From the NCBI GenBank assembly GCA_020723505.1, contig DYIT01000034.1, positions 1 through 39,034 on the forward strand: a stretch of 39,034 nt of DNA. Direction: 5' to 3'. Shown piece after piece: positions 3,984 to 18,613 of the stretch; the first letter of the stretch is position 1; every line of letters starts with the position of its first letter. The notes beneath the pieces were generated by a model. It saw only the letters and a program-made list of their open reading frames with translations, was not told where the DNA came from and did no database searches. Origin of the DNA: Candidatus Kuenenia stuttgartensis. GTDB taxonomy: Bacteria > Planctomycetota > JAKEIC01 > DYIT01. The translations under genes were made by a program, and so were the position numbers.

Positions 3984-4526
3984 ATGAGCCTTCCTGAACC
4001 CAGATCGGAGGTTGTTGAAAGGGCGCGGCGGGGCGACCCGCAGGCGTTCGGCGAGATTGTGCGAATTTACGAGCGGATGGTCTACAACTTCGCCTTCAGG
4101 ATGTCATTCAACAGGGAAGACGCGATCGACATGACGCAGGAGGTGTTCCTGAGGCTGTTCCGGAACTTCGGCAAGTTCGAGCCGTCGCGCGGGTTCGGAG
4201 CGTGGTTCATGAGGCTCGCGGTGAACGTGTGCATCAACGAGCGCCGCGGCAGGACCCGGAGGTCCTCGCTGGTCCAGGCCGATTCGGCCGAGTGCGAATC
4301 CAGGCCGGCCGCGACCGCTGAAATCGGGAAGGACCGTATTCTCAGGGCGGTGGCGGACCTGAATCCGTCGTACAGGGCCGTGGTGATGCTGAGATACATC
4401 GAGGACCTGTCTTACGGCGAAGTCGGACGGATACTCGGCCTTCCCGAGGGGACGGTGAAGAACAGGCTTTTCCGCGCGAGGGAAGTGCTGAGGGCCAGGC
4501 TCGAGAAAGTCGGGGTGGACGGATGA
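3984..4526 (+). CDS. ECF (group IV) RNA polymerase sigma factor
   Basis: 180 residues with the two ECF domains. Sigma-2 (about 13-87) contains DAIDMTQEVFLRLFRNF, the core-binding and -10-melting region. Sigma-4 (about 115-172) contains LSYGEVGRILGLPEGTVKNR, the helix-turn-helix that reads the -35 element. A short linker separates them and there is no C-terminal extension. It should direct RNA polymerase to a small stress or envelope regulon. Its TGA overlaps the ATG of a zinc-finger anti-sigma factor, a classical sigma/anti-sigma pair, followed by a membrane protein. Upstream, CCCGC (3956-3960) and GCGGG (3974-3978) form a small inverted repeat around TATCAT, possibly a regulatory site, but I could not identify an autoregulatory promoter with confidence. 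Confidence 0.95.
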   Translation: MSLPEPRSEVVERARRGDPQAFGEIVRIYERMVYNFAFRMSFNREDAIDMTQEVFLRLFRNFGKFEPSRGFGAWFMRLAVNVCINERRGRTRRSSLVQADSAECESRPAATAEIGKDRILRAVADLNPSYRAVVMLRYIEDLSYGEVGRILGLPEGTVKNRLFRAREVLRARLEKVGVDG

Positions 4527-5131
4527 GAAGCGCATGCGGAAGGGGATCGGACGCGCAGGAGTACTTCGACGGCGCAATGGACGCGGAGAAGTCGCGGGAA
4601 TTCCGCCTCCACCTCGAAGGCTGCCCCGGGTGCAGGGCCAGGATCGAGGGGTACGGGGCAATCGGAGCGGCGCTCTCGGATTTGAATCCAGGCCCGGTGC
4701 CTGCGGTCCTGCACGAAAGGCTCATGGGCATCGTGCCTGTTGCGGCTCCCCGGCGCGTGAGAATCTGGGCGGCGGCAGCCCTGCTTGCGGCGTCTTCCGT
4801 GCTGTTCTGGCTCATGTTCATGCCGTTCTCCGCCGGGACCGGCATGCCGAATCCCGGGGACGGGGGCCTGCTTTCGCCGGTGCGGGAGCTGAACAGGATC
4901 GGCGGAATGGTCGGGGAGAACGTGGAATCGGTCGCGTCGAGCGTCAGGGATTTCGCCGAGGTCGACCTGGACATCGGCGCGGCAGTGCCGCTCGAAGGGG
5001 GAACGCTCGCAGCGGTCTTCGCGGCGATGGTAGCCGCGACAGCGTTCGTGAACGCGGCCGCGTACAGGAGATACAGGGCGGCAGCCAGAGGGCCTGCCGC
5101 CGGCGGAATGACTGAAAGGAGAACCACATGA
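4523..5131 (+). CDS. Membrane anti-sigma factor with HCC zinc-finger domain
   Basis: 202 residues. The N-terminus has the zinc-binding anti-sigma signature H30-x3-C34-x2-C37 (HLEGCPGC), which clamps ECF sigma factors. A transmembrane segment follows at about 80-102 (IWAAAALLAASSVLFWLMFM), then an extracytoplasmic region with amphipathic helices, then a second hydrophobic segment at about 161-181. Two membrane spans put both ends in the cytoplasm, unlike single-span RsiW-type factors. It overlaps the sigma gene upstream (ATGA, 4523-4526) and the next gene downstream (ATGA, 5128-5131), so the three are translated as a unit. It should hold the sigma factor inactive at the membrane until an envelope signal; whether release is by proteolysis or by zinc or redox change cannot be told. 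Confidence 0.88.
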   Translation: MRSACGRGSDAQEYFDGAMDAEKSREFRLHLEGCPGCRARIEGYGAIGAALSDLNPGPVPAVLHERLMGIVPVAAPRRVRIWAAAALLAASSVLFWLMFMPFSAGTGMPNPGDGGLLSPVRELNRIGGMVGENVESVASSVRDFAEVDLDIGAAVPLEGGTLAAVFAAMVAATAFVNAAAYRRYRAAARGPAAGGMTERRTT

Positions 5132-5973
5132 AAACTGCGATGATCGTTGTCGCGCTGGTCCCCGCGATGCTGGTGGCGTCCGTCTTTTTCGGCGGAATCG
5201 CGCTTGCCGACTCGCAGGCGAAGGGCGTTCCGGCAATAGGCCTCGAGTCCGGCGACTCCCCGGCAGCGGACGGGGAAAAGGCCCAGCCCGAAAAGGCGGC
5301 CGAACCTGTTCCGCCCGGGAAGAAGGACGGCGACGCGGACCGGAAGGACAAGGACCAGGCTCCGGGACTTGACCGGTCCGGCGAGGATGGCAGCGGGAAG
5401 CAGTTCATGATTCGTCACAGGAAGGAACTCGAGGGCGCGGTAGGGGCAATCGTCGGCATGGCGTTCATCCTGATGTCGGGCGTCGCGCTCTTCGCGCTCC
5501 AGTTCCTCATGCTGATTACGTTCCCCGCCGGCGTGGAGCGCATCAGGACATCCATCGAGGAGAAGAGGCTGTTCTCCTTCGTGCTCGGGCTCGTGAACTC
5601 GGTCTTCTTGCTGCTGCTCATCGGAGTGCTCGGCAAGGCGGGCGGGCCCGCGGGGGGATTCGCGGTGCTCTTCCTGTTCGCGCTCATATTCCTCGCGTTC
5701 GTCGGGCTAGTCGGACGCGCAAGGCAAATCGGAGGCAAGGCGGCGGCTGCCGCCGGATTCAATCCCAATCCCGCGCTGAGCCTGCTCATGGGATGGGGGA
5801 TTGTGTTCTTCGTGGGGATCATCCCGGTCGTCGGATGGGTCATAGCCGCATACTGGTGCGTATCCGGCGTCGGCGGCGTGGTTTTGAGCCTGTTCCCGGG
5901 CCAGGGCAAGGGTAACACCGCTGTGAAAATCGAGCCCAGGGACGATTTCGAGAGCCCGGTGGTGAAAGTGTAG
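5128..5973 (+). CDS. Multi-span membrane protein, third gene of the sigma/anti-sigma operon
   Basis: 281 residues. A signal peptide (about 1-27, cleavage near ALA) leads to a 70-residue hydrophilic linker rich in Lys, Asp, Pro and Gly. Four or five hydrophobic segments follow: about 104-131, 148-168, 176-196 and 217-256, the last long enough for two passes. A cytoplasm-like segment RIRTSIEEKR lies between the first two. The C-terminus is charged. I do not recognise a family; the hydrophobic half loosely resembles the membrane domain of some bactofilin-associated proteins, without the bactofilin part. The start has a strong ribosome-binding site (AAAGGAG) and overlaps the anti-sigma stop. Its place in the operon suggests a sensor or a target of the sigma factor. 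Confidence 0.8.
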   Translation: MKTAMIVVALVPAMLVASVFFGGIALADSQAKGVPAIGLESGDSPAADGEKAQPEKAAEPVPPGKKDGDADRKDKDQAPGLDRSGEDGSGKQFMIRHRKELEGAVGAIVGMAFILMSGVALFALQFLMLITFPAGVERIRTSIEEKRLFSFVLGLVNSVFLLLLIGVLGKAGGPAGGFAVLFLFALIFLAFVGLVGRARQIGGKAAAAAGFNPNPALSLLMGWGIVFFVGIIPVVGWVIAAYWCVSGVGGVVLSLFPGQGKGNTAVKIEPRDDFESPVVKV

Positions 5974-6296
5974 AAGCTGTTCTCAAGCGGGAGTCCAAGG
6001 CCGAAGGTCACAGGAAGTGCCGAGGGTCGGGGATTGGGGGGACCGCAGGCGTTGGCCGTGACACGGAAGCCGGGAACAGGCCGGGTTCCGCACGAAGCAC
6101 CTGGCCTCGCGCTTCTTGTGGAATAAGCAAATCCATCCCCGGACCACCCGGCCATCCTGCTCACTCTCCGCTCCGCCCCCCTGCGCGCACGACTCTTCAC
6201 CGCTGATATTTTCCCAGCCCATGGCGCTGAAAACCAAGAATGCGCTATAATTCATCCATTCATTTAATCCAGGCATCTCGAACATGGAGGGATGGA
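5974..6296. other. Intergenic region with promoter for the lipoprotein gene
   Basis: GC-rich for the first 200 bases, with small inverted repeats such as GGAAC/GTTCC around 6080 but no T-tract after them, so no clear terminator for the membrane protein. The last 60 bases are AT-rich and carry the promoter listed separately. No gene was found here. Confidence 0.4.
6246..6251 (+). promoter_or_regulatory. Putative -10 box (TATAAT) for the HEXXH lipoprotein gene
   Basis: A perfect TATAAT lies 45 bases before the ATG at 6297, in an AT-rich patch. A matching -35 is not evident at 16-18 bp spacing (GGCGCT region). The predicted start of transcription is near 6258 and would give a leader of about 40 bases. 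Confidence 0.5.
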
Positions 6297-8264
6297 ATGA
6301 ACGCTTTTTCCGCCGTACGCATTCCGTCGTTGCGCATGCCGGCCGCGGTTTCGCTGGCGTTTGCGTTCCTGGTCCTGTCCGGATGCGGCGACCAGGGATC
6401 GGCCGAGAGGTCGGGGCCGGTAAGGCTCGCGAGCGCCACGGTCGCGCCTCCATGGCAGCCCGCCCTGTCCGACTTCAGCATTTCAGCGGCACCGGCCGCA
6501 CCTGCGGCGAATGCGGCCGTGGAACGGAAAGGCGCGCCTCCCGCTTCCGGGGAGGACGGCAACGCCGCTGCCGAGAGGATCGCGAAGAAGCTGGCGGATG
6601 AAGCCGCGAAGCTCAAGGGCGAAAGCGCCGCGAAGGCACCGAAGGATCCTGCGGTCATTCCCAAGCCGGAGCCCAAGGAAGCGGGCGACGCGGGCAAGGA
6701 GCTCGCCGACCTGGGCGAGCTTGATCCGAAAATCCTGGACCTTGCGAGGGTCTTCGATTTCGCAGGGGCAGTCGACCTGGTCGGGAAATTCGGAGCGGGG
6801 GTGAAGTCCCGCATGGCCGCGAAGGAGGTGGAGCGCAGGATTCTCGACATCAAGGCCATGGAGGCCGCGTTCGACCGGCTCATCGCCAACGTGGCGGGAA
6901 GCGAGGTCGAGATTGCCGACGACGTCGTGCTCAAGGTCGAGAAAGCCGACCGGCAGGGCCTGACCGGCAAGATTGGATCCGCGACCACGAGCAGGAAATG
7001 GAGCGCCTTCCCGCGCGAGACGATACTCTCCCTGTGCGAGTGGGACGAGATGTCGGCCGCGGACGAATACGGCATCGCCATGCTCGCGTACGCCTTCGGC
7101 ATGCCCGAGGAGGCGGAAAAGCACCTGATGGAGTGCGCTGCGTCCGACCCGTCCAGGACATCCCTTCTCGGGGAAATCATCGCGAAACGCCGCGGCGCTC
7201 CGATAGGTACGGAGCTGTCCCCGTACAAGGGCATATGGGTCACGGGCGAGGAGAGGGCGCTCATAGACAAGGGGTGGGAGAGGTACAACGACAAATGGAT
7301 GAGTCCCGAAGACATAATGAAGGCCAAGGGATTCGTATTCCACAACGGAAAATGGATAACTCCGCAGCAGTACGATAAGGAGACTAAAGCCGAGAGAGTG
7401 CTCGCGGACCTGGCGAAGAAGCTCGCGCCCAAGGGGCTCATCGACAAGCCGGGGGCGGACCAGGAACAGCTCGACTGGGGCAAGCGCCGCAAGTTCGCGT
7501 TCCCCGGGGGGCACTACACGATAGAGTCCAACCTGACCCAGGACGCGGTGAAGGACATCGCGTACATAATGGAAGTCCTTCACACCAACTTCCGGAAGAT
7601 ATTCGCGGTGAAATCGACCCCGCATTTCATGGTGCTGATTGGGAAGAACCAGGGCGAATACGACAGCATCCTGGGCGGGGGAGGGCTCGGGAAATGCGGC
7701 ACGGACGGCGAGATTTCCACGTTCTACCAGCCGCCGAACACAACGCTGGTCCTGATGCATGAGGGCACGCACCAGTTCATCTTCAAGGCCGCCCCCACCT
7801 GCCCGCACTGGCTGCATGAAGCCATGGCGTCGTTCTTCGAATGCAGCAAGTTCATGTTCAATCCGAAGACGAGGGCCATGGAGCTCAAGACCGGGCTTCT
7901 GAACCACTGGAGGCTGGGCCCCATCCAGGCGGAAATCAGGAACAAGACATATACTCCGCTGCGTCAGCAGATAAACGGCAACATCGACGGGCTTCAGATG
8001 TACCACCAGGGCTGGGCGCTCATCTACTACCTCGTGAACGCGAAGAACGGCGTCTACGCCCCAAGGGTCTTCACGTACCTCGACAAGTTCGCAGGAAAGG
8101 GCGGTGTCGGCAGGAAGAAGGGCGAACGCGAGGACCGCCAGGTCATGAGGTTCATGAAGGCCATGGGGATCCGCGACATGGACGAATTCGAGGAGGACTG
8201 GAAGAAGTTCACCCTCTCGCTGGACATAAACAAGTCAGAGGATTTCAACTCCGGCCACAAGTAG
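6297..8264 (+). CDS. Exported lipoprotein with HEXXH metallopeptidase-like domain (DUF1570-like)
   Basis: 655 residues from the ATG at 6297, chosen because GGAGGG precedes it and a lipoprotein signal follows at once (hydrophobic run, then LSGC). A 19-codon extension upstream in frame has neither. After an Ala/Lys/Pro-rich linker (to about 140) and a helical middle part comes WERYNDKWMSPEDIMKAKGF with a second half-repeat HNGKWITPQQYD (about 325-360), common in planctomycete exported proteins. The C-terminal half holds HEGTH at 488-492, then HWLHEAMA with E508 as the likely third zinc ligand, the layout of gluzincin peptidase_MA/DUF1570 proteins. It is thus probably a membrane-anchored zinc peptidase or an inactive relative. 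The stop is one base before the next gene, so it is co-transcribed with manC. The substrate is unknown. Confidence 0.82.
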   Translation: MNAFSAVRIPSLRMPAAVSLAFAFLVLSGCGDQGSAERSGPVRLASATVAPPWQPALSDFSISAAPAAPAANAAVERKGAPPASGEDGNAAAERIAKKLADEAAKLKGESAAKAPKDPAVIPKPEPKEAGDAGKELADLGELDPKILDLARVFDFAGAVDLVGKFGAGVKSRMAAKEVERRILDIKAMEAAFDRLIANVAGSEVEIADDVVLKVEKADRQGLTGKIGSATTSRKWSAFPRETILSLCEWDEMSAADEYGIAMLAYAFGMPEEAEKHLMECAASDPSRTSLLGEIIAKRRGAPIGTELSPYKGIWVTGEERALIDKGWERYNDKWMSPEDIMKAKGFVFHNGKWITPQQYDKETKAERVLADLAKKLAPKGLIDKPGADQEQLDWGKRRKFAFPGGHYTIESNLTQDAVKDIAYIMEVLHTNFRKIFAVKSTPHFMVLIGKNQGEYDSILGGGGLGKCGTDGEISTFYQPPNTTLVLMHEGTHQFIFKAAPTCPHWLHEAMASFFECSKFMFNPKTRAMELKTGLLNHWRLGPIQAEIRNKTYTPLRQQINGNIDGLQMYHQGWALIYYLVNAKNGVYAPRVFTYLDKFAGKGGVGRKKGEREDRQVMRFMKAMGIRDMDEFEEDWKKFTLSLDINKSEDFNSGHK

Positions 8265-8265
8265 C

Positions 8266-9330
8266 ATGGAAGACCTTGCAGTAGTAATCCTTGCCGGAGG
8301 ATCGGGGACGAGGTTCTGGCCGGCGAGCACGGCCTCGAGGCCCAAGCAGTTCCTGAAGCTGCTCGGCCAGAGGAGCCTGTTCGAGGACTGCGTGGACAGG
8401 GCCCTTGCCCTCGCCCCCGCGGAACGAATCCTGGTGCTCACGAACGAAATCCAGAAGCCGCTCGTCCGCGACCAGGCCGGGGCGCTGCCGCCCGAGAACG
8501 TGATCTGCGAGCCTTGCAGGCGGGACACGGCCGCGGCCGTCGCCCTGGGGGCGGCGCTTTGCAGGAAGCTGTTCGGCGACCCCGTGACGGCGGTCTTCCC
8601 TTCGGACCACGCCATAAGCCCCCTCGACCTGTTCAGGAGGACCGTCCTTTCCGCGGCGGCGGCGGCCGGCGGCGGGGCGCTGTACACCCTGGGAATCAGG
8701 CCGTCGCGGCCGGAGACCGGGTACGGATACCTCGAACTGGGGGAGCAGACGCTCGACGACGGCGGAATCCGCCATTACCGCCTGCTCAGGTTCAAGGAGA
8801 AGCCGGACCTGAAGGCGGCTCGCCGGTACGTCGGGTCGGGCAGGTTCCTGTGGAACAGCGGGATGTTCGTCTGGAGGACGTCGGCTGTCCTGGCACGAAT
8901 CGAATCGTTCCTCCCGGGGCACCTCGAGGCGGTCTCCAGGGCGGTGGAATCCTTCGGAGGCCGGAAATGGCGGGCGGCGCTCAGGTCCGCGTTCGAGCCG
9001 CTCAAGCCCGTCTCCATAGACTACGGCGTGATGGAGAAGGCTCCGGACGTGAGGACCGCGGCCGCCGAGTTCTCGTGGAACGACGTGGGCGGCTGGCCTG
9101 CGCTCGAAGGGATTCTGCCTCGAGACGCGGACGGCAATTCGGCGAACTGCGTGGTGCACTCCCTGGATTCGTCGGGGAACGTCGTCTTCTGCGAAGGCGG
9201 CGGAAGGTCGGTGGCGCTGGTCGGCGTGAAGGACCTCGTTGTCGTGGATGCGGGCGGGAGAATCCTCGTCGTGCCCAAGGCCCGCGCACAGGACGTGAAG
9301 AAACTGGTGGAAGGAATCGGGAAGGATTGA
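8266..9330 (+). CDS. manC: Mannose-1-phosphate guanylyltransferase (GDP-mannose pyrophosphorylase)
   Basis: 354 residues, the single-domain length typical of bacterial GMPs that lack the isomerase domain. The nucleotidyltransferase signature LAGGSGTRFWP is at 9-19, followed by SRPKQFL, the Asp of PSDHAI for metal binding, the sugar-binding ETGYGY, FKEKPD with the second conserved Lys, and WNSGMFVW. It makes GDP-mannose from mannose-1-phosphate and GTP for cell-surface polysaccharides or glycoconjugates. It begins two bases after the stop of the exported lipoprotein, and its own stop overlaps the TTG of the thioesterase. No phosphomannomutase or glycosyltransferase lies nearby, so the genetic context does not show which glycan uses the product. 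Confidence 0.94.
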   Translation: MEDLAVVILAGGSGTRFWPASTASRPKQFLKLLGQRSLFEDCVDRALALAPAERILVLTNEIQKPLVRDQAGALPPENVICEPCRRDTAAAVALGAALCRKLFGDPVTAVFPSDHAISPLDLFRRTVLSAAAAAGGGALYTLGIRPSRPETGYGYLELGEQTLDDGGIRHYRLLRFKEKPDLKAARRYVGSGRFLWNSGMFVWRTSAVLARIESFLPGHLEAVSRAVESFGGRKWRAALRSAFEPLKPVSIDYGVMEKAPDVRTAAAEFSWNDVGGWPALEGILPRDADGNSANCVVHSLDSSGNVVFCEGGGRSVALVGVKDLVVVDAGGRILVVPKARAQDVKKLVEGIGKD

Positions 9331-9773
9331 GGACAGCGGCTTTGGCGCGGCTTCGGATTGAACTCCCGGAGAAATACCTCTTCTCGACCGAGATCGCCGT
9401 CCGCATCGGCGACATAAACTACGGGGGGCATCTGGGCAACGACTCGGTTCTCGGGCTGTTCCACGAGGCGCGGCTGCGGTTCCTGAAAAGCCGGGGGTAC
9501 TCGGAACTCGACGCCGGCGGGGCGGGGATAATCATGGTCGATTCGGCCGTGTGCTACAGGTCCCAGGCATTCCACGGCGAGACGATGAAGGTCGAGGTGG
9601 CGGTCGCCGACCCGGACAGGTACGGGTGCGATTTCCTGTACAGGATGTCCGACGTCGCGACCGGCAGGGAGGTCGCGCGCGCCAAGACATCGATTCTTTT
9701 CTTCGATTACGGCGAAAACAGGAAGACGGAAATGCCCGGACCGTTCCGGGCGGCCTTCTTCGAGGCGTCCTGA
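9327..9773 (+). CDS. Hotdog-fold acyl-CoA thioesterase (4HBT family)
   Basis: 148 residues from TTG at 9327, which overlaps the manC stop. A second TTG at 9342 has a better placed GAGGA eight bases upstream and may be the true start; both give the same enzyme. The motif RIGDINYGGHLGND (about 30-43) matches the D-x-N-x-x-G-H active-site loop of 4-hydroxybenzoyl-CoA thioesterase-type proteins. Next come the long central helix (LGLFHEARLRFLKS) and the antiparallel strands ending TSILFFDY. It should hydrolyse acyl-CoA thioesters in the cytoplasm; substrate unknown. In the manC operon it could be a simple passenger or a housekeeping acyl-CoA scavenger. Confidence 0.85.
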   Translation: MRTAALARLRIELPEKYLFSTEIAVRIGDINYGGHLGNDSVLGLFHEARLRFLKSRGYSELDAGGAGIIMVDSAVCYRSQAFHGETMKVEVAVADPDRYGCDFLYRMSDVATGREVARAKTSILFFDYGENRKTEMPGPFRAAFFEAS

Positions 9774-9786
9774 AAGGAGTCCGGTA

Positions 9787-11190
9787 ATGAAGCATCTAAA
9801 ATCGGCTGTCGCCCTCCTGGCATCCCTCCTCGTCTGCCTTGCTGCCGCTTCGGCGGAGGAAAAGACGCCGGGCGCGGCGCCGGCAGGGGCTGCGGTAAAG
9901 GCGGATCTTTCCTCCCCCAGGGCGGCGTTCGAGTCGTTCAGCAAGGGTCTGGAAGCCCTGACCGCCGAGCACCGGAAGCTGCTCTCGAGCATGCAGCGCA
10001 GGGAATCGGAGATATACGCGAAGGTCCTGACTCCGGGCCTCGTCGAGCTTCTGAAGAAGGGCGAGGCGAAGCAGGGAACGGACGACGGGTACATGAAGGA
10101 AGGCCCGCTCGTATACGTGAAGGAGGAGCCCGCAAAGGACGGCAGGGCGGCCGTTCACGCCTCGCAGAAGAACACCGTCACGGAGGCGGACTTCGTGGAC
10201 GGCAAGGTAAGGATGAAGGAGGTGCAGGTCACGGCGAACCACAGGCTCGAATTCGTCAAGGCGGACGACGGCTGGCGGGCGAATAAATGGCTCGAGGAAT
10301 GCCGCGAATGCAAGGGCACCGGGAAGTGCGCCGAATGCGGAGGCACCAGGAAGACGAAGGAGACCAGGTGCGAGGGCTGCGGCGGGACGGGCAAGGACCA
10401 GGAGGGAGAAGGCTGCCTCATGTGCGAAGGCACGGGAAGGCTTCCCGCGGGCGAGTGCATCCTCTGCGCGGACACCGGGGGGAAGTGCGGGAGCTGCGGG
10501 GGCGAAGGCTTCCTCCGGCGCGACAGGTTCGAGGATGGCGCCCTTTTCGCCGGCGAGACGGCCGGGATTGGGGAGTATTTCGACCTGAGCACGCCTGAGA
10601 ACGCGGTGAAATCATATCTGAACCTGGAGGATCGGCACGAGGCTGCCCAGCGCGGCGTGATAGCCGGGCTGTCCATGGCAATCAGGGGCATAATCGAATC
10701 CTGGTTCGGGAAGGAGGCTCTGGCGGCGATCGACGCCCAGATCAAGAAGAACACCGAGGCGCTGAAGGCGGAGATGGCGCAAACCAGGAAGGAGATCGGC
10801 GCGGCGGCGGTCGAAGGAGATACGGCGACGGTCGTCATGACCTTGAGGTCGAAGACCGAGGAGGGCGAGGAGGTCGCGCGCGCCTCGTTCAGGCTGGTCA
10901 GGGCGGATTCCCTGTGGAGGATCGACGACCGGGGGATGCAGTGCTGGAACTGCAACGGAGAGGGGGTCTGCCTGGATTGCAAGGGATCCGGGAAAACCGA
11001 GTCCGAGAAATGCCCCATATGCGACGGATCCGGGAAGGACGACTCGGACGGGAGCAAATGCCCTGGCTGCAACGGATCCGGTACGACGCCGGTGGAGCCA
11101 TGCCCGTCATGCAAGGAATGCCCCGGCAAGTGCGGCTACTGCGGAGGGGCGAAATACGCATGGGACAGGAGCAGGAAGGACGCGAGATGA
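9787..11190 (+). CDS. Exported protein with two DnaJ-type cysteine-rich clusters (12 CxxC motifs)
   Basis: 467 residues, start fixed by AAAGGAG seven bases before ATG. Signal peptide 1-23 (LLASLLVCLAAASA). The rest is two copies of one module. Each opens with DLSxP (about 40 and 263), has a helical plus beta region like NTF2/SnoaL-type domains, ends in a hydrophobic strand with a Trp (WRANKW, WRIDDR), and then has six CxxC motifs. Cluster 1 (172-245) runs CREC, CAEC, CEGC, CLMC, CILC, CGSC; cluster 2 (386-458) runs CWNC, CLDC, CPIC, CPGC, CPSC, CGYC. Several fit CxxCxGxG of DnaJ, but there is no J domain. Twelve pairs could bind six metal ions or form disulfides outside the cytoplasm. The stop overlaps the nitroreductase start (ATGA). 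I know of no function for this architecture. Confidence 0.85.
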   Translation: MKHLKSAVALLASLLVCLAAASAEEKTPGAAPAGAAVKADLSSPRAAFESFSKGLEALTAEHRKLLSSMQRRESEIYAKVLTPGLVELLKKGEAKQGTDDGYMKEGPLVYVKEEPAKDGRAAVHASQKNTVTEADFVDGKVRMKEVQVTANHRLEFVKADDGWRANKWLEECRECKGTGKCAECGGTRKTKETRCEGCGGTGKDQEGEGCLMCEGTGRLPAGECILCADTGGKCGSCGGEGFLRRDRFEDGALFAGETAGIGEYFDLSTPENAVKSYLNLEDRHEAAQRGVIAGLSMAIRGIIESWFGKEALAAIDAQIKKNTEALKAEMAQTRKEIGAAAVEGDTATVVMTLRSKTEEGEEVARASFRLVRADSLWRIDDRGMQCWNCNGEGVCLDCKGSGKTESEKCPICDGSGKDDSDGSKCPGCNGSGTTPVEPCPSCKECPGKCGYCGGAKYAWDRSRKDAR

Positions 11191-11699
11191 TTGAAATCCT
11201 CAGGTCGAGGAGAAGCACGAGGAAGTTCGCGCCTGCAGGCCTGGAACGCGAGAAGGTGGAAGAACTCAAGGAAGCCCTGCTCAGGTCGCCTTCGTCGCGC
11301 GACCTGAAGCCATGGCAATTCGTCTTCGTTTCCGACCAGGAGACGCTGCGCGGCCTGTCGTCGGCCAAGGAAAGCGGAGGCGCGTTCCTTGCCGGCGCTC
11401 CGCTTGGCATAGTCGTGCTCGGCGACGAGTCGGCGTCCGACGTCTGGATTGAGGACTGCTCGATTGCGGCAATCATCTGCCAGCTCGCGGCGCATTCCCT
11501 CGGGCTCGGGAGCTGCTGGATTCAAATCCGGAACCGGAGGAATGCGGACGGGAGCACTGCGGAAGAGCGCGTGCGCAGGATTCTGCGCATCGAAAAGCCC
11601 TTGAGGGTCGAGTGCGTCATCGCCGTGGGATACCCGGGCGAAAGGAAGGACCCTGTGAAGAGGGAGGACCTGGCATGGGGGAGGATTTCCGGGCTTTGA
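11187..11699 (+). CDS. Small nitroreductase-family flavoprotein
   Basis: 170 residues from the ATG at 11187, which overlaps the preceding TGA; the longer open frame upstream is the shadow of the cysteine-rich gene. The opening IEILRSRRSTRKF is the FMN-phosphate-binding signature of the nitroreductase fold. SPSSRDLKPWQFVFV is the usual second element, LGSCWIQIRNR the dimer-interface helix, and VIAVGYPGERK the C-terminal strand. It should use NAD(P)H and FMN to reduce an unknown substrate in the cytoplasm, possibly a quinone or nitro compound. It is shorter than classical NfsB but normal for the compact Nfn/BluB-like branch. Repeat copy 2 begins three bases after the stop and may terminate the operon. 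Confidence 0.9.
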   Translation: MIEILRSRRSTRKFAPAGLEREKVEELKEALLRSPSSRDLKPWQFVFVSDQETLRGLSSAKESGGAFLAGAPLGIVVLGDESASDVWIEDCSIAAIICQLAAHSLGLGSCWIQIRNRRNADGSTAEERVRRILRIEKPLRVECVIAVGYPGERKDPVKREDLAWGRISGL

Positions 11700-11701
11700 C
11701 C

Positions 11702-11758
11702 ATGACACGGACGAGCCGGAACCAGACAGGTTTTATTGTTCCGGCTTGTCCGTGTCAT
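11702..11758 (+). repeat. Interspersed hairpin repeat, copy 2 (long stem only)
   Basis: Two 21-base arms (11702-11722 and 11738-11758) pair over their whole length with one G-U, loop of 15 bases. The core of the arm reads ACACGGACGAGCCGGAAC. The base pair that is C:G in copies 1, 4 and 6 and G:C in copies 3 and 5 is A:T here, so pairing is kept while the sequence changes. There is no CACGCGC second hairpin after it. It sits three bases after the nitroreductase stop. Confidence 0.85.
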
Positions 11759-11787
11759 TCGCGGGAGACGGCATCAGGACGAATGGC

Positions 11788-12120
11788 ATGGGATCAAGGA
11801 CCGGCAGGGAGAAACGCACGCTGGATGCGATGATTCGGATGTTCTGCCGCGGTTCCCACGGCGGGGCGGATGTCCCGTGCGGCGAATGCAGGGAGCTCCT
11901 GGAATACGCACTGGAAAGGCTTTCCCGCTGCAGATTCGGCGAGGACAAGCCCACTTGCGCCAGATGCCCCGTGCATTGCTACAGGCCCGCGATGAGGGAT
12001 CGGATTAAGGCGGTCATGCGGCATTCCGGACCAAGGATAGTCTGGAAGCATCCGGTTCTGGCCCTCATGCACCTCATCGACGGGCGAAGGAAGGGAAAGG
12101 ATTTGCCCGGCGGGCGGTGA
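11788..12120 (+). CDS. YgbA / nitrous-oxide-stimulated-promoter (NOSP) family protein
   Basis: 110 residues. The start at 11788 (MGSRTGREK) has AGGA eight bases upstream; the in-frame GTG at 11746 lies inside the hairpin of repeat copy 2 and is unlikely. The family signature is clear: GECRELLEYALERLSRCRF, then KPTCARCPVHCY, then IKAVMRHSGPRIVWKHPVLALMHL. Five to six conserved Cys plus one His suggest an iron or zinc site. The family is named for a promoter that responds to nitrous oxide, and E. coli YgbA is linked to nitrosative stress; a biochemical role is not established. No nitrogen-oxide gene is nearby here. Preceded by the hairpin repeat, so it probably has its own promoter. Confidence 0.88.
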   Translation: MGSRTGREKRTLDAMIRMFCRGSHGGADVPCGECRELLEYALERLSRCRFGEDKPTCARCPVHCYRPAMRDRIKAVMRHSGPRIVWKHPVLALMHLIDGRRKGKDLPGGR

Positions 12121-12193
12121 TTAACCTGACACGCGTGTTTCCTGGAAGCCTGTTCTTTCCGGACGCTCCGATTTGCCTTTGACTCCGGCTGAA

Positions 12194-12214
12194 TGTCTAG
12201 TAATATACTAGACA
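12194..12214. promoter_or_regulatory. Perfect operator-like palindrome upstream of thi4
   Basis: TGTCTAGTA (12194-12202), centre ATA, TACTAGACA (12206-12214): nine-base arms without mismatch in otherwise GC-rich DNA, 165 bases before the thi4 ATG. Size and symmetry suit a dimeric repressor site. As RNA it could also be a weak hairpin, but it is AT-rich and has no T-tract. Confidence 0.55.
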
Positions 12215-12378
12215 ATTCGGCGGCAGGAGGCAGGCGCCGGGCTCCTGAGCGTGAAACCGCGCGGGAAGCCCGGGCATCGTGGCCTGGGGGCCGGATGGAT
12301 ACCGGGCGGAAATCGCTTGCGGATTCCGCAGCCTTGGGGCGCGGGAGCGCAAGACGGCATTGAAACGGAGGTGAATCG

Positions 12379-13215
12379 ATGGCAGAACGCATTTTCTCGA
12401 GGGCGAACGAGGTCGACGTCACAAGGGCGATTCTGAAGGGATTCGTCCGCGATTTCGAAAATCATCTGGTCTGCGACGCGGTCGTGATAGGGGCCGGGCC
12501 GGCGGGCCTCGTCTGCGCCCGCGAACTGGCCGCCAACGGCAAGCGCGTCCTCCTGATGGAGAGAAACAATTATCTGGGCGGCGGGTTCTGGATTGGCGGA
12601 TTCCTCATGAACACGCTCACCGTCCGCTCACCCGGCGACGGGCTGCTTCGGGAAATCAACGTGAAGCTCGAGGAAGTCTCGCCCGGTCTCTTTGCAGGGA
12701 ACGCCCCCGAGGCATGCTCGAAGCTGATTGCCTCGACCCTGGACGCAGGCGTATGGACCCTGAACATGGCGTCGCTCGAGGATCTCGTGCTCAGGAAGGG
12801 CCGCGTGGAGGGCGTTGTAATCAACTGGACGCCGGTGCAGACCCTGCCCAGGCAGATTACCTGCGTCGATCCGGTGGCGCTCGAATCCAAGGTAGTGGTC
12901 GATGCGACCGGACACGAGGCGTACGTGTGCGGCAAGCTGCATTCAAGGGGCCTGATCGAGATGGCAGGGATGGGCGCGATGAACGTGGAGGAATCGGAGG
13001 ACGCCGTGGTCGAAAAGACCTCGGAGGTGTTCCCGGGGCTGATTGCATGCGGAATGAGCGTCAGCACGGTGTTCGGGGTTCCCCGCATGGGTCCCACGTT
13101 CGGCGGCATGCTGCTTTCCGGAAAGAAGGCGGGCGGAATCGCGCTGGACATCATCGATGCGCGGATCGGGGCGGGGCACGCGAAGCCGGGAAAGCGCGAA
13201 GCCGGGAAGCGCTGA
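12379..13215 (+). CDS. thi4: Thi4-type thiazole synthase (ADP-thiazole biosynthesis)
   Basis: 278 residues, start fixed by CGGAGGTGA. The FAD/NAD-binding Rossmann motif GAGPAGLVCARELA is at 38-51, followed by MERNNYLGGGFW; the C-terminus has MGPTFGGMLLSGKKA, a Thi4 hallmark. Thi4 builds the thiazole of thiamine from NAD, glycine and sulfur. Yeast-type enzymes give up an active-site Cys; archaeal and anaerobe types use sulfide and have His instead. Here the region reads DATGHEAYVCGKLH, with H179, C184 and H188; which one aligns with the yeast Cys cannot be decided by eye. No other thi gene is nearby and I see no TPP riboswitch in the 258-base leader, which instead has a perfect palindrome at 12194-12214. 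Followed by a truncated PP-loop gene. Confidence 0.9.
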   Translation: MAERIFSRANEVDVTRAILKGFVRDFENHLVCDAVVIGAGPAGLVCARELAANGKRVLLMERNNYLGGGFWIGGFLMNTLTVRSPGDGLLREINVKLEEVSPGLFAGNAPEACSKLIASTLDAGVWTLNMASLEDLVLRKGRVEGVVINWTPVQTLPRQITCVDPVALESKVVVDATGHEAYVCGKLHSRGLIEMAGMGAMNVEESEDAVVEKTSEVFPGLIACGMSVSTVFGVPRMGPTFGGMLLSGKKAGGIALDIIDARIGAGHAKPGKREAGKR

Positions 13216-13248
13216 TTGCATGGATTTCGGCGCGGGAATAATCACGAA

Positions 13249-13485
13249 GTGACCAAGGCCATCTGTCTGTTGTCGGGCGGCCTGGACAGCGTCCTGGCCG
13301 CCCGAATCATTCTCGACCTCGGCGTGGAGGTCGAGGCATTGAATTTCGTCTCCGTCTTCTGCACCTGCACGCCGAAATCCGCGGGCTGTCCCGCCGCCAG
13401 ATCCGCCGCTTCTTCCCTGGAAAAGCTGCTTGTCAAGCCTCTCCAGCGCGGGTGGAGAAAGCACTGGAAAACCGGTCAGCTCTGA
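13249..13485 (+). pseudogene. Truncated PP-loop ATPase (ThiI/MnmA-like thiouridylase fragment)
   Basis: From GTG 13249 (TTG at 13216 also possible) the protein begins TKAICLLSGGLDSVLAARII, the SGGxDS PP-loop that adenylates tRNA uridines or similar substrates. LNFVSVFCTCTPKSAGCPAA then matches the start of long (over 300 residues) tRNA-thiolation-like enzymes. Homology ends at about residue 58; the remaining 20 residues look random and the frame stops at 13485. The catalytic cysteines and the rest of the ATPase domain are absent. It is therefore a 3'-deleted relic, with the break in or next to a patch of repeats (12-bp inverted repeat 13454-13527, small hairpin repeat, repeat copy 3). Its place after thi4 suggests a former role in sulfur transfer. 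Confidence 0.7.
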
Positions 13486-13527
13486 ACACGGCATCCATCA
13501 GAATCGACCAGGTCAAGTGCTTTCTCC
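13454..13527. repeat. 12-bp perfect inverted repeat in the broken end of the PP-loop gene
   Basis: GGAGAAAGCACT (13454-13465) and AGTGCTTTCTCC (13516-13527) are exact reverse complements 50 bases apart. The left arm lies in the non-homologous tail of the truncated PP-loop frame. It could be the ends of a small inserted element (74 bp) or a hairpin; no target duplication was evident. Confidence 0.55.
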
Positions 13528-13541
13528 GGACGTAACCGCCT

Positions 13542-13571
13542 GTCTGGATCCCGGCTTTCGCCGGAATGACG
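13542..13571. repeat. Small hairpin repeat of the 'GGATCCCGGC-tttc-GCCGGAATGAC' type
   Basis: CCGGC (13551-13555), TTTC, GCCGG (13560-13564) inside GTCTGGATCCCGGCTTTCGC. Short repeats with this general look (a CCCG..CGGG core flanked by GGAT and AATGAC, like neisserial dRS3) are scattered in many bacterial genomes. It lies just before repeat copy 3, making this a composite repeat patch. Confidence 0.5.
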
Positions 13572-13572
13572 C

Positions 13573-13624
13573 ATAACGCGGACGAGCCCTGAGTTCGTAT
13601 CCGCCATCGGCTCGTCCGCGTTAT
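13573..13624 (+). repeat. Interspersed hairpin repeat, copy 3 (stem only)
   Basis: ATAACGCGGACGAGCC (13573-13588) and GGCTCGTCCGCGTTAT (13609-13624) are perfect 16-bp complements with a 20-base loop. The ACGC/GCGT pair shows the G:C variant of the co-varying position. The second fixed hairpin is replaced by a different one (13629-13678). Confidence 0.85.
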
Positions 13625-13628
13625 ATTC

Positions 13629-13678
13629 AGCCTGAATTTTCGCGCGAAGCTTCGTTTAATTGCGCGAAAATACAGGCT
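13629..13678. terminator. 17-bp hairpin between convergent genes
   Basis: AGCCTGAATTTTCGCGC (13629-13645) pairs with GCGCGAAAATACAGGCT (13662-13678) with a single mismatch; loop 16 bases. It overlaps the stop codon (13677-13679, reverse strand) of the kelch-type lipoprotein gene and lies after the truncated PP-loop gene, so it can serve as a bidirectional terminator. No clean T-tract. Confidence 0.55.
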
Positions 13679-15140
13679 ATGGCGCCGTATTGACCCAAAC
13701 GTCGGCAGTGGCGACGCCCGTGTTGGCGTCCGCTCCCGCGATCACGAAGAAGCGGGGGCCGCCGCCGGTCGGCGAAATCGGGCTCATGGCCGATCCGCAG
13801 TTGTAGACATGCGCGCCGATGTCGTTCAGCCCGTTCCAGGAGCCGAACGTCCCGTCCGTCTGGATGTTGCATCCCCTCAATTCCGAGCTCGTCCCGCCGT
13901 AAGCCCCTTCGGCTACAATGACCTGGCCGAACGAGTTCCACACGAGGTGCTTCATCCTCTCCTTGGAGAGCGCCGTCACCGGGCTCCAGGTCCCAATCGC
14001 GCCGGAGACGAGCTGCGCCATGTAGCATTCGCCTATGGCGTTAGTGTCGCTGCTGCTGTTGGGGTCGGTGGAAGCCGCGTTCTCGCCGCCGGTCGTGTAG
14101 ATTCTCCCTCCGAAAGCGAAAGCGGCGAAGGAGCCCATGGCCTGGGGCATCGTCCTGGCCTGCAGGCTGAAGGGGGTCAGGGTCCCGTCGGAGTTCACGT
14201 CGGCGGCATAGATGGTATCCCGCGGATTGCCGGATCCCAGATACCCGCCCATCACGAAAAGCCTTCCCCTGTAGACGATTGCGCTGTGGCCGATGTGCGC
14301 GTCGGGCAGGGAACTCGTCGAAGAGGTCCAGGTCCCGAAAATCGCCCCGGTTGAGAGGTTCACGGCCGCGCTGTATACCGATGCGGTTCCGCCCGGCGTG
14401 TCGGTTGCGGTGTTCTGGCCGCCTATCACGTACAGATAGGCCGACCCGGCCGCCACCGGGCTGTTGCCGGAGTGCGCCGCGGCCATGGCGTGGAAGGCGC
14501 GGGCAGAAGGGAGATCCCCGAAACTGGACCACGACGCGGAGGACGAGAATGTCGCCCCGGACACCGTGAGCGTGAGGAAGCTCACCGTGGCCCTGTTGGT
14601 CGGCGTCCCGCCCGATGTCTGGCCTCCTGAAACGTACAAGTAGGCCTGCGTGTCGGTGTATGGGACCGTTTCGGCCCTAAGCCCCCTCAGGGCCTCGGGA
14701 TAGTCGGGCACGTCCGAGTTGCTGTTGCTCCACACGAGGTTGGAGGGGCTGAAGGGAGGTACGGAGACGATGTCGAGGTCCACGCCGTTGCTCGTGCCGT
14801 TCGCCGTTATGACGTAGACGGTCACGGTTCCGCCGGGGGTCAGGCCGGACGGCACGGTCACGATGATTGAATCCTCGGTCCAGCCTGCAGCCGACGGAAC
14901 GACGTCCGTGGGCACGGTGCTTTCAACGAACCTGACCGTGCCGGGGGACGAGAGGAAATCCGTGCCGTTGATTTCAATCGCCGTGCTCACCGGCGACTTT
15001 GGATCCGCGCATGAATTGATGTTGCTTATCGACGGCAGCGGAGGGGGAGGCGGCGGGTCGTCGTCGTCCTCGGAGCTGCAGCCGGCCATAATGGCCGCGG
15101 GAGCCAGCACGGCAAGCGCTATCAGGGCATATCTCTTCAT
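13677..15140 (-). CDS. Kelch-type beta-propeller lipoprotein with TIG domain
   Basis: 487 residues. Lipoprotein signal: MKRYALIALAVLAPAA then IMAGC (lipid-bearing Cys about 20), next an Asp4-Pro6 spacer. An IPT/TIG Ig-like domain follows (about 36-125; ISNINSCADPKSP through VTVPSGLTPGGTVTVYV). From about 130 there are six or so kelch-like repeats, each with a strand ending in V-GG (AYLYVSGGQ, AYLYVIGGQ, RLFVMGGYL, RIYTTGGEN) and a following xxWxS or xTWxP segment, which should close a beta-propeller. The start has GAGGAG upstream. It is probably displayed on the outer membrane or periplasmic face and binds a ligand or glycan; no catalytic motif is evident. It is transcribed away from the large Ig-like protein next door. 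Confidence 0.85.
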   Translation of the reverse strand: MKRYALIALAVLAPAAIMAGCSSEDDDDPPPPPPLPSISNINSCADPKSPVSTAIEINGTDFLSSPGTVRFVESTVPTDVVPSAAGWTEDSIIVTVPSGLTPGGTVTVYVITANGTSNGVDLDIVSVPPFSPSNLVWSNSNSDVPDYPEALRGLRAETVPYTDTQAYLYVSGGQTSGGTPTNRATVSFLTLTVSGATFSSSASWSSFGDLPSARAFHAMAAAHSGNSPVAAGSAYLYVIGGQNTATDTPGGTASVYSAAVNLSTGAIFGTWTSSTSSLPDAHIGHSAIVYRGRLFVMGGYLGSGNPRDTIYAADVNSDGTLTPFSLQARTMPQAMGSFAAFAFGGRIYTTGGENAASTDPNSSSDTNAIGECYMAQLVSGAIGTWSPVTALSKERMKHLVWNSFGQVIVAEGAYGGTSSELRGCNIQTDGTFGSWNGLNDIGAHVYNCGSAMSPISPTGGGPRFFVIAGADANTGVATADVWVNTAP

Positions 15141-15260
15141 CTTCTTCTCCTCAAACCAGCAGAACGCCCCGTAATCTGCCTTGAATGGGCATCGGAATAT
15201 TCAACGCAGTATCCGGGGAAACCATATATACAATATAACATACGTCATGATTGGCGGGTG

Positions 15261-17915
15261 ATGAAAATGGCAATCCGGATTGCAGGGCCGGCCGCCCTGC
15301 TGGCCTCGGGCGCCCTGGTATTCCTGGCGCTCCTCAATCTGAGCCTCATGCAGGACCCCGAAAGCAGGGAGATTCCATCTGCTGCCGCCGTGGAATCCGG
15401 CAGACCGCCGGGTGCGTCCGCACCGGCCCCGGACGTCGGGGGGGAGGACGGCGGATTCTCCGGCCTTCCTGAAAACCGGCTCATGGACGGCGGCTTTGCG
15501 CCTGCCGGTTCGTTCTCCCTGACAATCGTGGACCGCGACTCGAATCCTGTATCCGGGGCATCGGTGGGCATTCTTGACGAGAAACGGCTCTCCGGGCTGC
15601 TGGAGAAGATGCCATGGCGGGAGTGCCGGGTCATTTACGACACCGAAGCCCTGGTCGACAGGCACGGGGCGAAAGCCGTTTCCGGACCGGGCGGCGTCGT
15701 CGAACTGCCCGCGTTCGAGTGGGGAGCCCTGGTGAGCGCAAGGTCCGGGAAATCATGGGGGATGCTGCGCCTGGCCAGGATGCCGGTTTCGCTTGGGACG
15801 CTCGAAGTGATGCCCGACAGGTTCGCGGCCATCAGGGTTCTGGATTCGTCCGGCGGGCCGGTGGAAGACGCGGAGGTCATCATCGTCGGCAGGCGCGGCG
15901 GAAAGGACTTCCAGGCATGGTCCGGAAGGACTGCGGGCTCGGACGCGACAGCCGTTGCCAGGAATCTCGACCGGGAATACAGGTTCCAGAGGGATGCGTC
16001 GTATTCGGTTCATCCGGGGTTCCCCGTGGCCGGTTGCAAACCCGTGGCCATCGACCCCTTCAATTCCGGGGACAAGCCGTACACGGTCGTCCTTCCGGAG
16101 ACCGGGCGGCTTGCGGTCGAACTGGTCGACGCTGCCGGCAATCCCTGCCTCAAGTACCTCCCTGTCACGGCCGTCCTCGCCGGGGATTCCGGAGACGACA
16201 TTCCCGAGGAATACAGGTATTGCGCAGGCACGGTCGAGGCGTCTGGCGGCCGCGCGCTGTTCCGCCACGTCACGCCCGGCTCGAGGGTGGGCTTGTATGC
16301 ATATCCGATGTTCTGCCCCTTCAGGATGCATTTCGGAGAAGGTCCCAGGGCGGCGGGCCAGGAGGCGCTAATCCGGATTGAAGTCGAGGAATACGCGGTT
16401 CTGAAAGCCAGGCTTCTGGATGAAAACGGGGCCCCGGCCGGCCGGCTCGAGCTGAAATGCATGATTGAGCTCGAGAACAGTGACGGCATCGGAATCGGCA
16501 CCTTTTTCGATTATCTCTCCTCCGACGCGGACGGACGCCTGGAAAAGACCATCAAACCGGATCATTTCCTGTCGCGCGAGGACGGAGAGCCTTGCGGCGG
16601 AAGGATTAGTCTGTTCACAATGCCCGACTGCTCCGTCGCAGGAGCCATGACCGAGCTGAACGCAGTGATTGAGCTGCCTTCAGGGCTGCCGTCCGGCCCC
16701 TTCGACGCAGGGGACGTGGTCTTGGAGCGGTCGCCCCTCCTTGTCGACGGCAAGGTCGTCGACGGCGGCGGCCTTCCCGTCGCAGGCGCCTTGGTGACAA
16801 TCGCCAGCGAAGGGACAATGCAGTCCATAACCAGGAGTTTCAGGCAGCGCGAGGCGTTCGAAAGCGACCCGTGGCAGAACAAGAAGGCCGTATCCGGCCC
16901 GGACGGCGGATTCGAGATATACGCGTTCCCCGCAGACATGGGCTACGAAGAAAGGATTGGCGCGATGGCGTGGAAGCCCGGCCTCCTCGAGTCGCAGCCC
17001 GTCTTCTTCTCGCCTTCGGCAGGGGACATCGAGCTCTGCCTGGATTCGCCCGGAGGGGGCATCGAGGGCAGGCTCCTTCTCCCCGCGAATGCGCCCGGCG
17101 ATGCGGTCTGGATAAGAATCACGGGTTTGAAGACCGCTTTCGTCGAAGACGGCGGCAGCCTGCCTGTGACTCCGGGCAAGAGCGGCGCCTTCAGATTGCT
17201 CGGCCTTCCCTGCGGGAACGCGGTCGTGCAGGTAGGCGGAAGGGACGACCAGCTGCCCTCGTACGCGGCGGGCGTCGAGATAAAGGAGGGCGGGCCGGTG
17301 AGGGATCCGAGGTTCGATCCGCTCAATCTGAGGGGCATTCTGAGGCGGATCGTCGTCAGCGCCGCGGACCGGTCCGGCGCTCCGCTGGAAGGGGCGGCGG
17401 TAAGGCTCGACGGAAACCATTCCCCTGCCGGGTACACCGACAGGTTCGGGCATGCGGCGGTTGTAACTTGCAGGAGCGAGGTGGAAATCGAAGCCGGCAA
17501 GCCCGGATTCCGGAGCGTCTCGATGAAGACGACCGGCAGTGACGCGTCCTTCATCCTTGCCCCATGCATCCAGGTCAGGCTTGTGCTGGAGTGCGGCATG
17601 CCGCTCCCCGACCCTCCGCTGGAGGTGGCATGCAGTCTCAAGGGCCGGACGTATTCAGGGACGAAGGTTTTCCATCCCGGGGAATCCGGCAAGAAGGCCG
17701 AGTTCGAACTGCCCGCGCCCGGGTCATACGCTGTAGGACTTGCGGTCAGGAGGATTGTCGGGAATGATGACGGGCAGTATGCGAAGTTCGAGGACGTCGA
17801 AGGATTGTATCCGCCTGCAATCTTCGTCCGGGACTCGGATGAAGCCCAGGAGTTTCGCATCGAGGTAGCGCCCGATGTGCTGAAGAGGGTCCTGGACAGG
17901 GTCGGGGGGGACTGA
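15261..17915 (+). CDS. Large exported protein with repeated carboxypeptidase-regulatory-like (Ig-like) domains
   Basis: 884 residues from ATG 15261 (a GTG lies just before it; ATG at 15267 is also possible). A single N-terminal membrane segment (about 8-30) is not followed by a clear cleavage site, so it may stay anchored. The rest is a chain of beta-sandwich units with the carboxypeptidase D regulatory-like pattern of strand, turn and 'G.PVxGAxV': SNPVSGASVGIL (about 96), SGGPVEDAEVIIV (about 200), GGLPVAGALVTIA (about 505) and SGAPLEGAAVRLD (about 705). There are few cysteines and no enzyme motif. Such proteins are usually cell-surface scaffolds or adhesion modules. The 120-base gap to the kelch gene is AT-rich (CATATATACAATATAACAT) and should hold divergent promoters. 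Repeat copy 4 starts three bases after the stop. Confidence 0.82.
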   Translation: MKMAIRIAGPAALLASGALVFLALLNLSLMQDPESREIPSAAAVESGRPPGASAPAPDVGGEDGGFSGLPENRLMDGGFAPAGSFSLTIVDRDSNPVSGASVGILDEKRLSGLLEKMPWRECRVIYDTEALVDRHGAKAVSGPGGVVELPAFEWGALVSARSGKSWGMLRLARMPVSLGTLEVMPDRFAAIRVLDSSGGPVEDAEVIIVGRRGGKDFQAWSGRTAGSDATAVARNLDREYRFQRDASYSVHPGFPVAGCKPVAIDPFNSGDKPYTVVLPETGRLAVELVDAAGNPCLKYLPVTAVLAGDSGDDIPEEYRYCAGTVEASGGRALFRHVTPGSRVGLYAYPMFCPFRMHFGEGPRAAGQEALIRIEVEEYAVLKARLLDENGAPAGRLELKCMIELENSDGIGIGTFFDYLSSDADGRLEKTIKPDHFLSREDGEPCGGRISLFTMPDCSVAGAMTELNAVIELPSGLPSGPFDAGDVVLERSPLLVDGKVVDGGGLPVAGALVTIASEGTMQSITRSFRQREAFESDPWQNKKAVSGPDGGFEIYAFPADMGYEERIGAMAWKPGLLESQPVFFSPSAGDIELCLDSPGGGIEGRLLLPANAPGDAVWIRITGLKTAFVEDGGSLPVTPGKSGAFRLLGLPCGNAVVQVGGRDDQLPSYAAGVEIKEGGPVRDPRFDPLNLRGILRRIVVSAADRSGAPLEGAAVRLDGNHSPAGYTDRFGHAAVVTCRSEVEIEAGKPGFRSVSMKTTGSDASFILAPCIQVRLVLECGMPLPDPPLEVACSLKGRTYSGTKVFHPGESGKKAEFELPAPGSYAVGLAVRRIVGNDDGQYAKFEDVEGLYPPAIFVRDSDEAQEFRIEVAPDVLKRVLDRVGGD

Positions 17916-18115: not shown

Positions 18116-18613
18116 CTACAGCTTGACGCTCTTTATGCACTCCGGGCAGTAGAGCTTGCCGTCGAATTCCGCGACCGAATCCGCGGGATGGAAGCCCAGG
18201 CAGGCGGAGCAAATCCTCCTTCTTCCCGAGGCGCTCCTTCCGTCGGGCCCGGCCGCGTCGGCGGTGCCGCCGGTCAGGTCGGTTCCGCAGCTCATGCAGA
18301 ACTCGAAGCCGAAGTTAACTATTCCGCATGCCCTGCACTGCCTTATCAGCGATGCGTCTATGATCGGTTCCTGGGTATCGGCCGAGGGCTGGACGGGCAC
18401 GAACTCGCCCGTGCCGGTGATGCTCGCCCCGCATGCGGCGCAGTTTTTCTTGTCGCCCTGGAGCGCAAGCCCGCATTTCGGGCATCTCGTGATCTTCGGA
18501 GGCTGTTTCGGCTGCATCCCGCCTTTGTGCATGGGCTTGCCGCACTCCATGCAGAACGCTGAGGACTTGTCGTTGAGCTTGCCGCAGTTCTTGCAGAATA
18601 CCTTGACACCCAT
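18116..18613 (-). CDS. Protein with four zinc ribbons
   Basis: 165 residues with four CxxC...CxxC units: C7/C10 with C21/C24; CPKC with CAAC (about 44-62); CRAC with CMSC (about 92-110); and a wider CSAC ... YCPEC pair at the C-terminus that resembles a LIM-type or HNH-like zinc finger. Between units are short Gly/Pro/Lys linkers. No signal peptide or membrane segment, so cytoplasmic. Double zinc ribbons of this type appear in many bacterial regulatory and scaffold proteins, but no specific function can be assigned. A promoter (TTGGAC, 16 bases, TATAAT) lies upstream at 18643-18670. A 6-bp hairpin (18622-18639) next to the ribosome-binding site may affect translation. Confidence 0.85.
   Translation of the reverse strand: MGVKVFCKNCGKLNDKSSAFCMECGKPMHKGGMQPKQPPKITRCPKCGLALQGDKKNCAACGASITGTGEFVPVQPSADTQEPIIDASLIRQCRACGIVNFGFEFCMSCGTDLTGGTADAAGPDGRSASGRRRICSACLGFHPADSVAEFDGKLYCPECIKSVKL

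Follow-up and report, generated by a model that had tools for sequence, protein, structure and literature searches.

Computation showed that the gene at 9787–11190 of the window (the whole stretch of DNA analyzed, 39,034 nucleotides) encodes a protein of two homologous modules with NTF2-like topology and symmetrically spaced CxxC motifs, and that the modeled finger has a DnaJ-type fold (Table 1). We consider the chances about even that this protein acts as an exported, zinc-stabilized, non-enzymatic protein-binding scaffold or holdase.

Table 1. Features of the tandem NTF2-like/CxxC gene, in window coordinates
Feature	Position	Strand	Basis
Ribosome-binding site AAGGAG	9774..9779	+	sequence; 7 nt 5' of ATG
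Gene, 467-aa exported tandem NTF2/CxxC protein	9787..11190	+	ORF list, codon GC, homologues
Putative signal peptide MKHLKSAVALLASLLVCLAAASA	9787..9855	+	hydrophobic N-terminal segment common to 11/11 family members
NTF2-like domain 1 (about residues 40–170), helix-helix-four strands	9904..10296	+	AF2, Foldseek, hhalign to domain 2
CxxC cluster 1 (residues 172–237), predicted DnaJ-type zinc ladder of three rungs, spaced 9-14-15-14-10	10300..10497	+	spacings, AF2 pLDDT 89.3, Foldseek
NTF2-like domain 2 (about residues 264–383)	10576..10935	+	AF2, Foldseek; weak SnoaL_4/SnoaL_3 and Rv0361_Cterm matches
CxxC cluster 2 (residues 386–452), spacings 9-14-16-14-10, predicted three-rung zinc ladder	10942..11142	+	spacings, alignment with cluster 1

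The open reading frame is a real gene. GC content at codon positions 1, 2 and 3 is 59, 51 and 83%, and the downstream gene starts at 11187 with an ATGA overlap. Together with the AAGGAG site, these features ruled out as genes the long antisense ORFs of this GC-rich stretch. No consensus promoter was found in 5800–12000 of the window. The N-terminus, MKHLKSAVALLASLLVCLAAASA-EE, resembles a typical signal peptide, and judged by eye, signal peptidase I would probably cleave after residue 23. The earlier note had proposed a signal peptide and made its conservation in homologues the test; a hydrophobic N-terminal segment fitting export was present in all 11 two-module proteins found, with start codons in some other genomes chosen as those nearest that segment. 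In the mature protein, all 25 cysteines lie within CxxC motifs.

When the cysteine clusters were removed and profiles of the two halves were aligned with hhalign, the match covered 121 columns with a probability of 96.6 and an E-value of 5e-10 for this single comparison, which supports a common ancestry of the two cysteine-free halves and bears out the internal duplication that had been proposed. In a tree of 21 halves, first and second halves grouped better than in most shuffles, without resolving a single duplication event. AF2 modeling of the whole protein, run with three sequences, built either half from two helices, the first of them long, followed by four strands, in the same order in both, with confidences of 41 to 86 over ten-residue blocks; mean pLDDT was 49, and the cysteine regions were mostly below 40. 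Searched against the PDB with Foldseek, this model matched almost exclusively NTF2-like structures, with TcpC (3ub1, a tandem NTF2 protein), VirB8-like OrfG, Tim44, ketosteroid-isomerase-like proteins and PBP2a on top. Sequence identities were 6–19%, and TM-scores were low because the whole-protein model was poor overall. Scores against NTF2-type Pfam models (SnoaL, DUF4440) were 14.7, 13.8 and 12.4 bits, under the cut-offs, and the weak sequence matches to DUF4440, SnoaL and Rv0361_Cterm agree with the fold. The earlier assignment of an NTF2-like region is thus upheld, as helices on a curved antiparallel sheet, with moderate model confidence. The Trp-containing strand described for both halves was likewise found (W163, W377). 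A DLSxP start does occur in both (D40, D266), but that of the first half is not family-wide, being absent from the proteins of genome G006.

Within the NTF2-like domains, none of the polar residues was invariant in the 11 family members; conservation was highest for T82 (10/11), D266 (9/11), and K90 and D380 (8/11 each). A catalytic pocket in these domains is therefore unlikely. Tandem NTF2-like domains as in TcpC, and NTF2-like domains in general, are shared with the non-catalytic envelope proteins VirB8-like OrfG, the N-terminal domain of PBP2a and the Rv0361 family, all of which, TcpC included, lack the cysteine clusters of the window protein.

Each module was reported to carry six CxxC motifs, and the count is correct: they lie at residues 172, 181, 195, 210, 224 and 234 in cluster 1 and at 386, 395, 409, 425, 439 and 449 in cluster 2, the latter with an overlapping seventh (C442/C445). 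Because whole-protein AF2 left the cysteine regions unresolved, the finger of cluster 1 was folded alone, as one segment (residues 162–248) with seven aligned rows, giving a mean pLDDT of 89.3. The best Foldseek match of this model in the PDB was BSD2 (6ekb, E 9e-4), the second E. coli DnaJ (1exk); human DNAJA3 (2ctt), BSD2 on RbcL (6ekc) and anti-TRAP (1.0 Å over 28 columns) also matched. A sequence profile search of the PDB with the finger placed 1exk first (E 2e-4). Against Pfam DnaJ_CXXCXGXG (PF00684), the window protein scored only 11.7 bits, under the cut-off of 32.7, and two homologues scored 35.7 (L039:4722-5948, which passes) and 32.6 bits. The Foldseek and profile matches thus show the DnaJ-type assignment to be right in spite of the low Pfam score. 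No J domain with an HPD motif was found in the window protein by Pfam scan or in its sequence. The earlier description as a J-less DnaJ-type finger therefore held for the fold, but this is not the plain four-motif finger; it is an enlarged form with six motifs and three predicted rungs.

Across the family, CxxC spacings are nearly mirror-symmetric: 9-14-15-14-10 in the window protein, 9-14-10 in short clusters, and 9-15-9, 9-9-14-9-9 or a single 15 elsewhere. Most of the length variation is in the central interval, which spans 13 to 36 in six-motif clusters; within a cluster, the two flanking arms are equally long (14/14, 13/13, 9/9). Clusters carry 2, 4 or 6 motifs, an even number in all but one, cluster 1 of G036b, where CPHR stands in place of the fourth CxxC. 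When spacings were shuffled within clusters, 0 of 20,000 trials reached the symmetry of the family, a result that overstates the symmetry because homologous clusters are not independent; cluster 1 of G064 is an exception. In a rule-based set of other clusters, the symmetry P values were 0.0034, 0/5000, 0.0004 and 0.12 at gap limits of 20, 25, 30 and 40. Mirror symmetry with length change at the center is expected of a ladder of nested hairpins in which motifs pair 1+6, 2+5 and 3+4. In the finger model, DSSP assigned strand or bridge residues at 8–10/81–83, 19/72, 28/62, 32–33/57–58 and 42/48, with sums of 90–91; from these we infer the rung pairing, since the DSSP output names no partners. The Zn1 ligands of Salmonella DnaJ, C147/C150 and C200/C203, are its first and last CxxC (PMC8262869). 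The simplest reading is that each finger forms such a nested hairpin, with three predicted zinc sites.

Similar spacing was seen in proteins of other kinds. A protein on an IMG/VR viral contig (L050:1524-2492) has ten CxxC spaced 11-11-11-11-15-11-11-11-11, a perfect mirror, as if it were a five-rung zinc ladder, and planctomycete membrane or coiled-coil proteins at L033, L034 and L036 have six-CxxC clusters of 11-9-18-9-11, 11-9-15-9-11 and 11-11-15-11-11. The viral proteins of L050 and L051 were rejected as family members, the resemblance being through CxxCxGxG motifs only.

The central cysteine-rich domain of DnaJ (1exk) is like the window finger in its CxxCxGxG motifs and nested pairing, but it has two rungs instead of three predicted ones, and the DnaJ of locus L024 is spaced 17-22-14; the window protein also lacks the J domain, G/F region and C-terminal substrate domains of DnaJ. 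The DnaJE1 group (BSD2, LQY1, PSA2 and ZnJ6) shares a J-less cysteine-rich finger of DnaJ type. These proteins have four CxxC (two zinc) and are found in chloroplasts, whereas the window protein has two fingers of six CxxC each, NTF2-like domains and bacterial export. Anti-TRAP (RtpA) has a superposable CxxCxGxG hairpin, a one-rung form of the same ladder, but it is 53 residues long with only two CxxC, no NTF2-like domain and no export signal.

With 24 ligand cysteines, the window protein could bind six zinc ions, and three paralogues occur in its genome. These observations would suit a metal store or buffer, holding up to six ions of zinc or another soft metal per protein outside the cytoplasm. 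We regard this as unlikely, however: the spacing of the ligands and the positions of Gly are strongly conserved and symmetric, whereas the number of motifs in a cluster varies between 2 and 6, a pattern more in keeping with a fold than with a storage capacity, and no conserved metal transporter or regulator was seen beside the genes.

Of the 392 Planctomycetota genomes sampled, six contained the 11 two-module proteins: three came from the window's own genome, two each from G006 (Planctomycetota bacterium J132, locus L039, of the same phylum as the window genome; in tandem), G036 and G304 (in tandem), and one each from G160 and G064; the window's own class was represented by two genomes only. 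Other matches in this set were DnaJ or other CxxC proteins, and a plasmid search gave no match. The two paralogues in the 4.9-Mb draft genome of the window are 40 and 36% identical to the window protein. One of them, G000b (L004), has a lipobox, LTGC, and membrane anchoring is therefore likely for it. Exported J-less CxxCxGxG proteins occur elsewhere in the phylum, lipoprotein-like in L015, L020, L026 and L031, and also as the type found in L025. Extracytoplasmic DnaJ-type fingers, which had been called unusual, are indeed rarely described, but they recur across Planctomycetota. The L025 type (L025, L052, L053, L055 and L063) combines a 'DGxxLEGxI' domain with CxxCxGxG fingers, and L025 passes the Pfam BSD2_CRD cut-off. 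An NTF2-like tail suspected in L025 was unsupported by hhalign; a YchJ_M-like match to it had an E-value of 0.043.

Export and the lipobox of the paralogue would also be consistent with a structural or adhesive envelope component, in which rigid rods would help to assemble the cell surface or mediate cell contact, and in anti-TRAP the small DnaJ-type fingers, each with a single zinc, do join oligomer contacts (PMC2896485). Against this, long repeats, a sorting signal and a beta-barrel partner are all missing, both from the protein and from what is conserved next to it, and we think such a role improbable. Of the functions offered by the earlier note, a binding or chaperone scaffold fits best, whereas nothing found speaks for adhesion.

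The neighbors of the gene in the window encode a DUF1570 protein, mannose-1-phosphate guanylyltransferase, a thioesterase and a nitroreductase. No neighborhood was conserved among the window locus, the paralogues and the loci of other genomes, so the genomic context does not point to a client. An ECF sigma factor and a zf-HC2 anti-sigma-like factor, which overlap by 4 nt (3984–5131), are encoded on the strand of the gene, about 4.7 kb upstream of it. A short ORF at 13216–13485 matches only positions 5–38 of the 197-position ThiI model and looks truncated or frameshifted, and a zinc-ribbon protein on the minus strand (18116–18613) has DZR over the Pfam cut-off. Near paralogue G000b, L042:2486-5587 and 10858-16544 include eight-CxxC proteins, possible multihaem cytochromes, together with subunits of FAD/iron-sulfur type, a set in keeping with anaerobic respiration.

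CxxC is also the thioredoxin-type motif, and thiol chemistry has been described in DnaJ (PMC4428491) and in the J-less ZnJ6 (PMC7865324), so the motif pairs might instead shuttle between zinc-bound or reduced and disulfide states, oxidizing or isomerizing envelope proteins. The window protein gave no match to a thioredoxin fold in Pfam, NCBIfam or fold searches. The arrangement of Gly residues and the symmetric pairing match structural Zn(Cys)4 sites, no conserved redox partner adjoins the gene, and DsbA, DsbB, DsbD and VKOR, like the haem-copper oxidase COX1, were not found in the window's own genome, although several control genomes were positive for each; as the draft is 89% complete, the absence of Dsb proteins is not proof. 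These absences suggest an anaerobic, reducing envelope, which would allow zinc-thiolate sites and make a Dsb-type role less likely. Given the missing partners and the lack of an invariant polar NTF2 residue, a zinc-stabilized scaffold or holdase is the likelier role, and we consider redox catalysis quite improbable.

A scaffold or holdase might work as follows. The signal peptide would direct secretion, and each NTF2-like domain would form a cupped sheet from whose last strand a rigid antiparallel cysteine ladder would rise directly, the conserved Trp lying nine residues before the first Cys. Each of the CxxC pairs 1+6, 2+5 and 3+4 would hold one Zn2+. Neither a J domain nor Hsp70 would then be needed for the tandem cup-plus-rod units to keep hold of a partner protein or unfolded client within the envelope, much as the J-less DnaJ-type finger BSD2 acts on Rubisco. 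The zinc domain of DnaJ has holding activity on unfolded substrates (PMC8262869), and ZnJ6 stops the aggregation of reduced insulin and has oxidizing activity (PMC7865324).

We found neither the tandem of NTF2-like domains and fingers nor a three-rung finger described in the open-access papers searched; J-less DnaJ-type fingers and NTF2-like envelope domains were already known. Symmetric insertion, taking the DnaJ-type finger from two zinc rungs to a predicted three, offers a simple prediction of how the fold grows. More tentatively, and in our view rather doubtfully, there may be a general extracytoplasmic zinc-ladder module in which DnaJ-type fingers gain or lose entire mirror-image rungs (one to three zinc, with five predicted in L050) and, set on NTF2-like cups, make up a class of planctomycete envelope chaperones or scaffolds that work without ATP. 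If exported as its N-terminus suggests, the window protein would place J-less DnaJ-type fingers outside the bacterial cytoplasm, on NTF2-like domains, where ATP and Hsp70 are absent. If it does bind clients, Planctomycetota would have an envelope chaperone or scaffold of a kind not described before.
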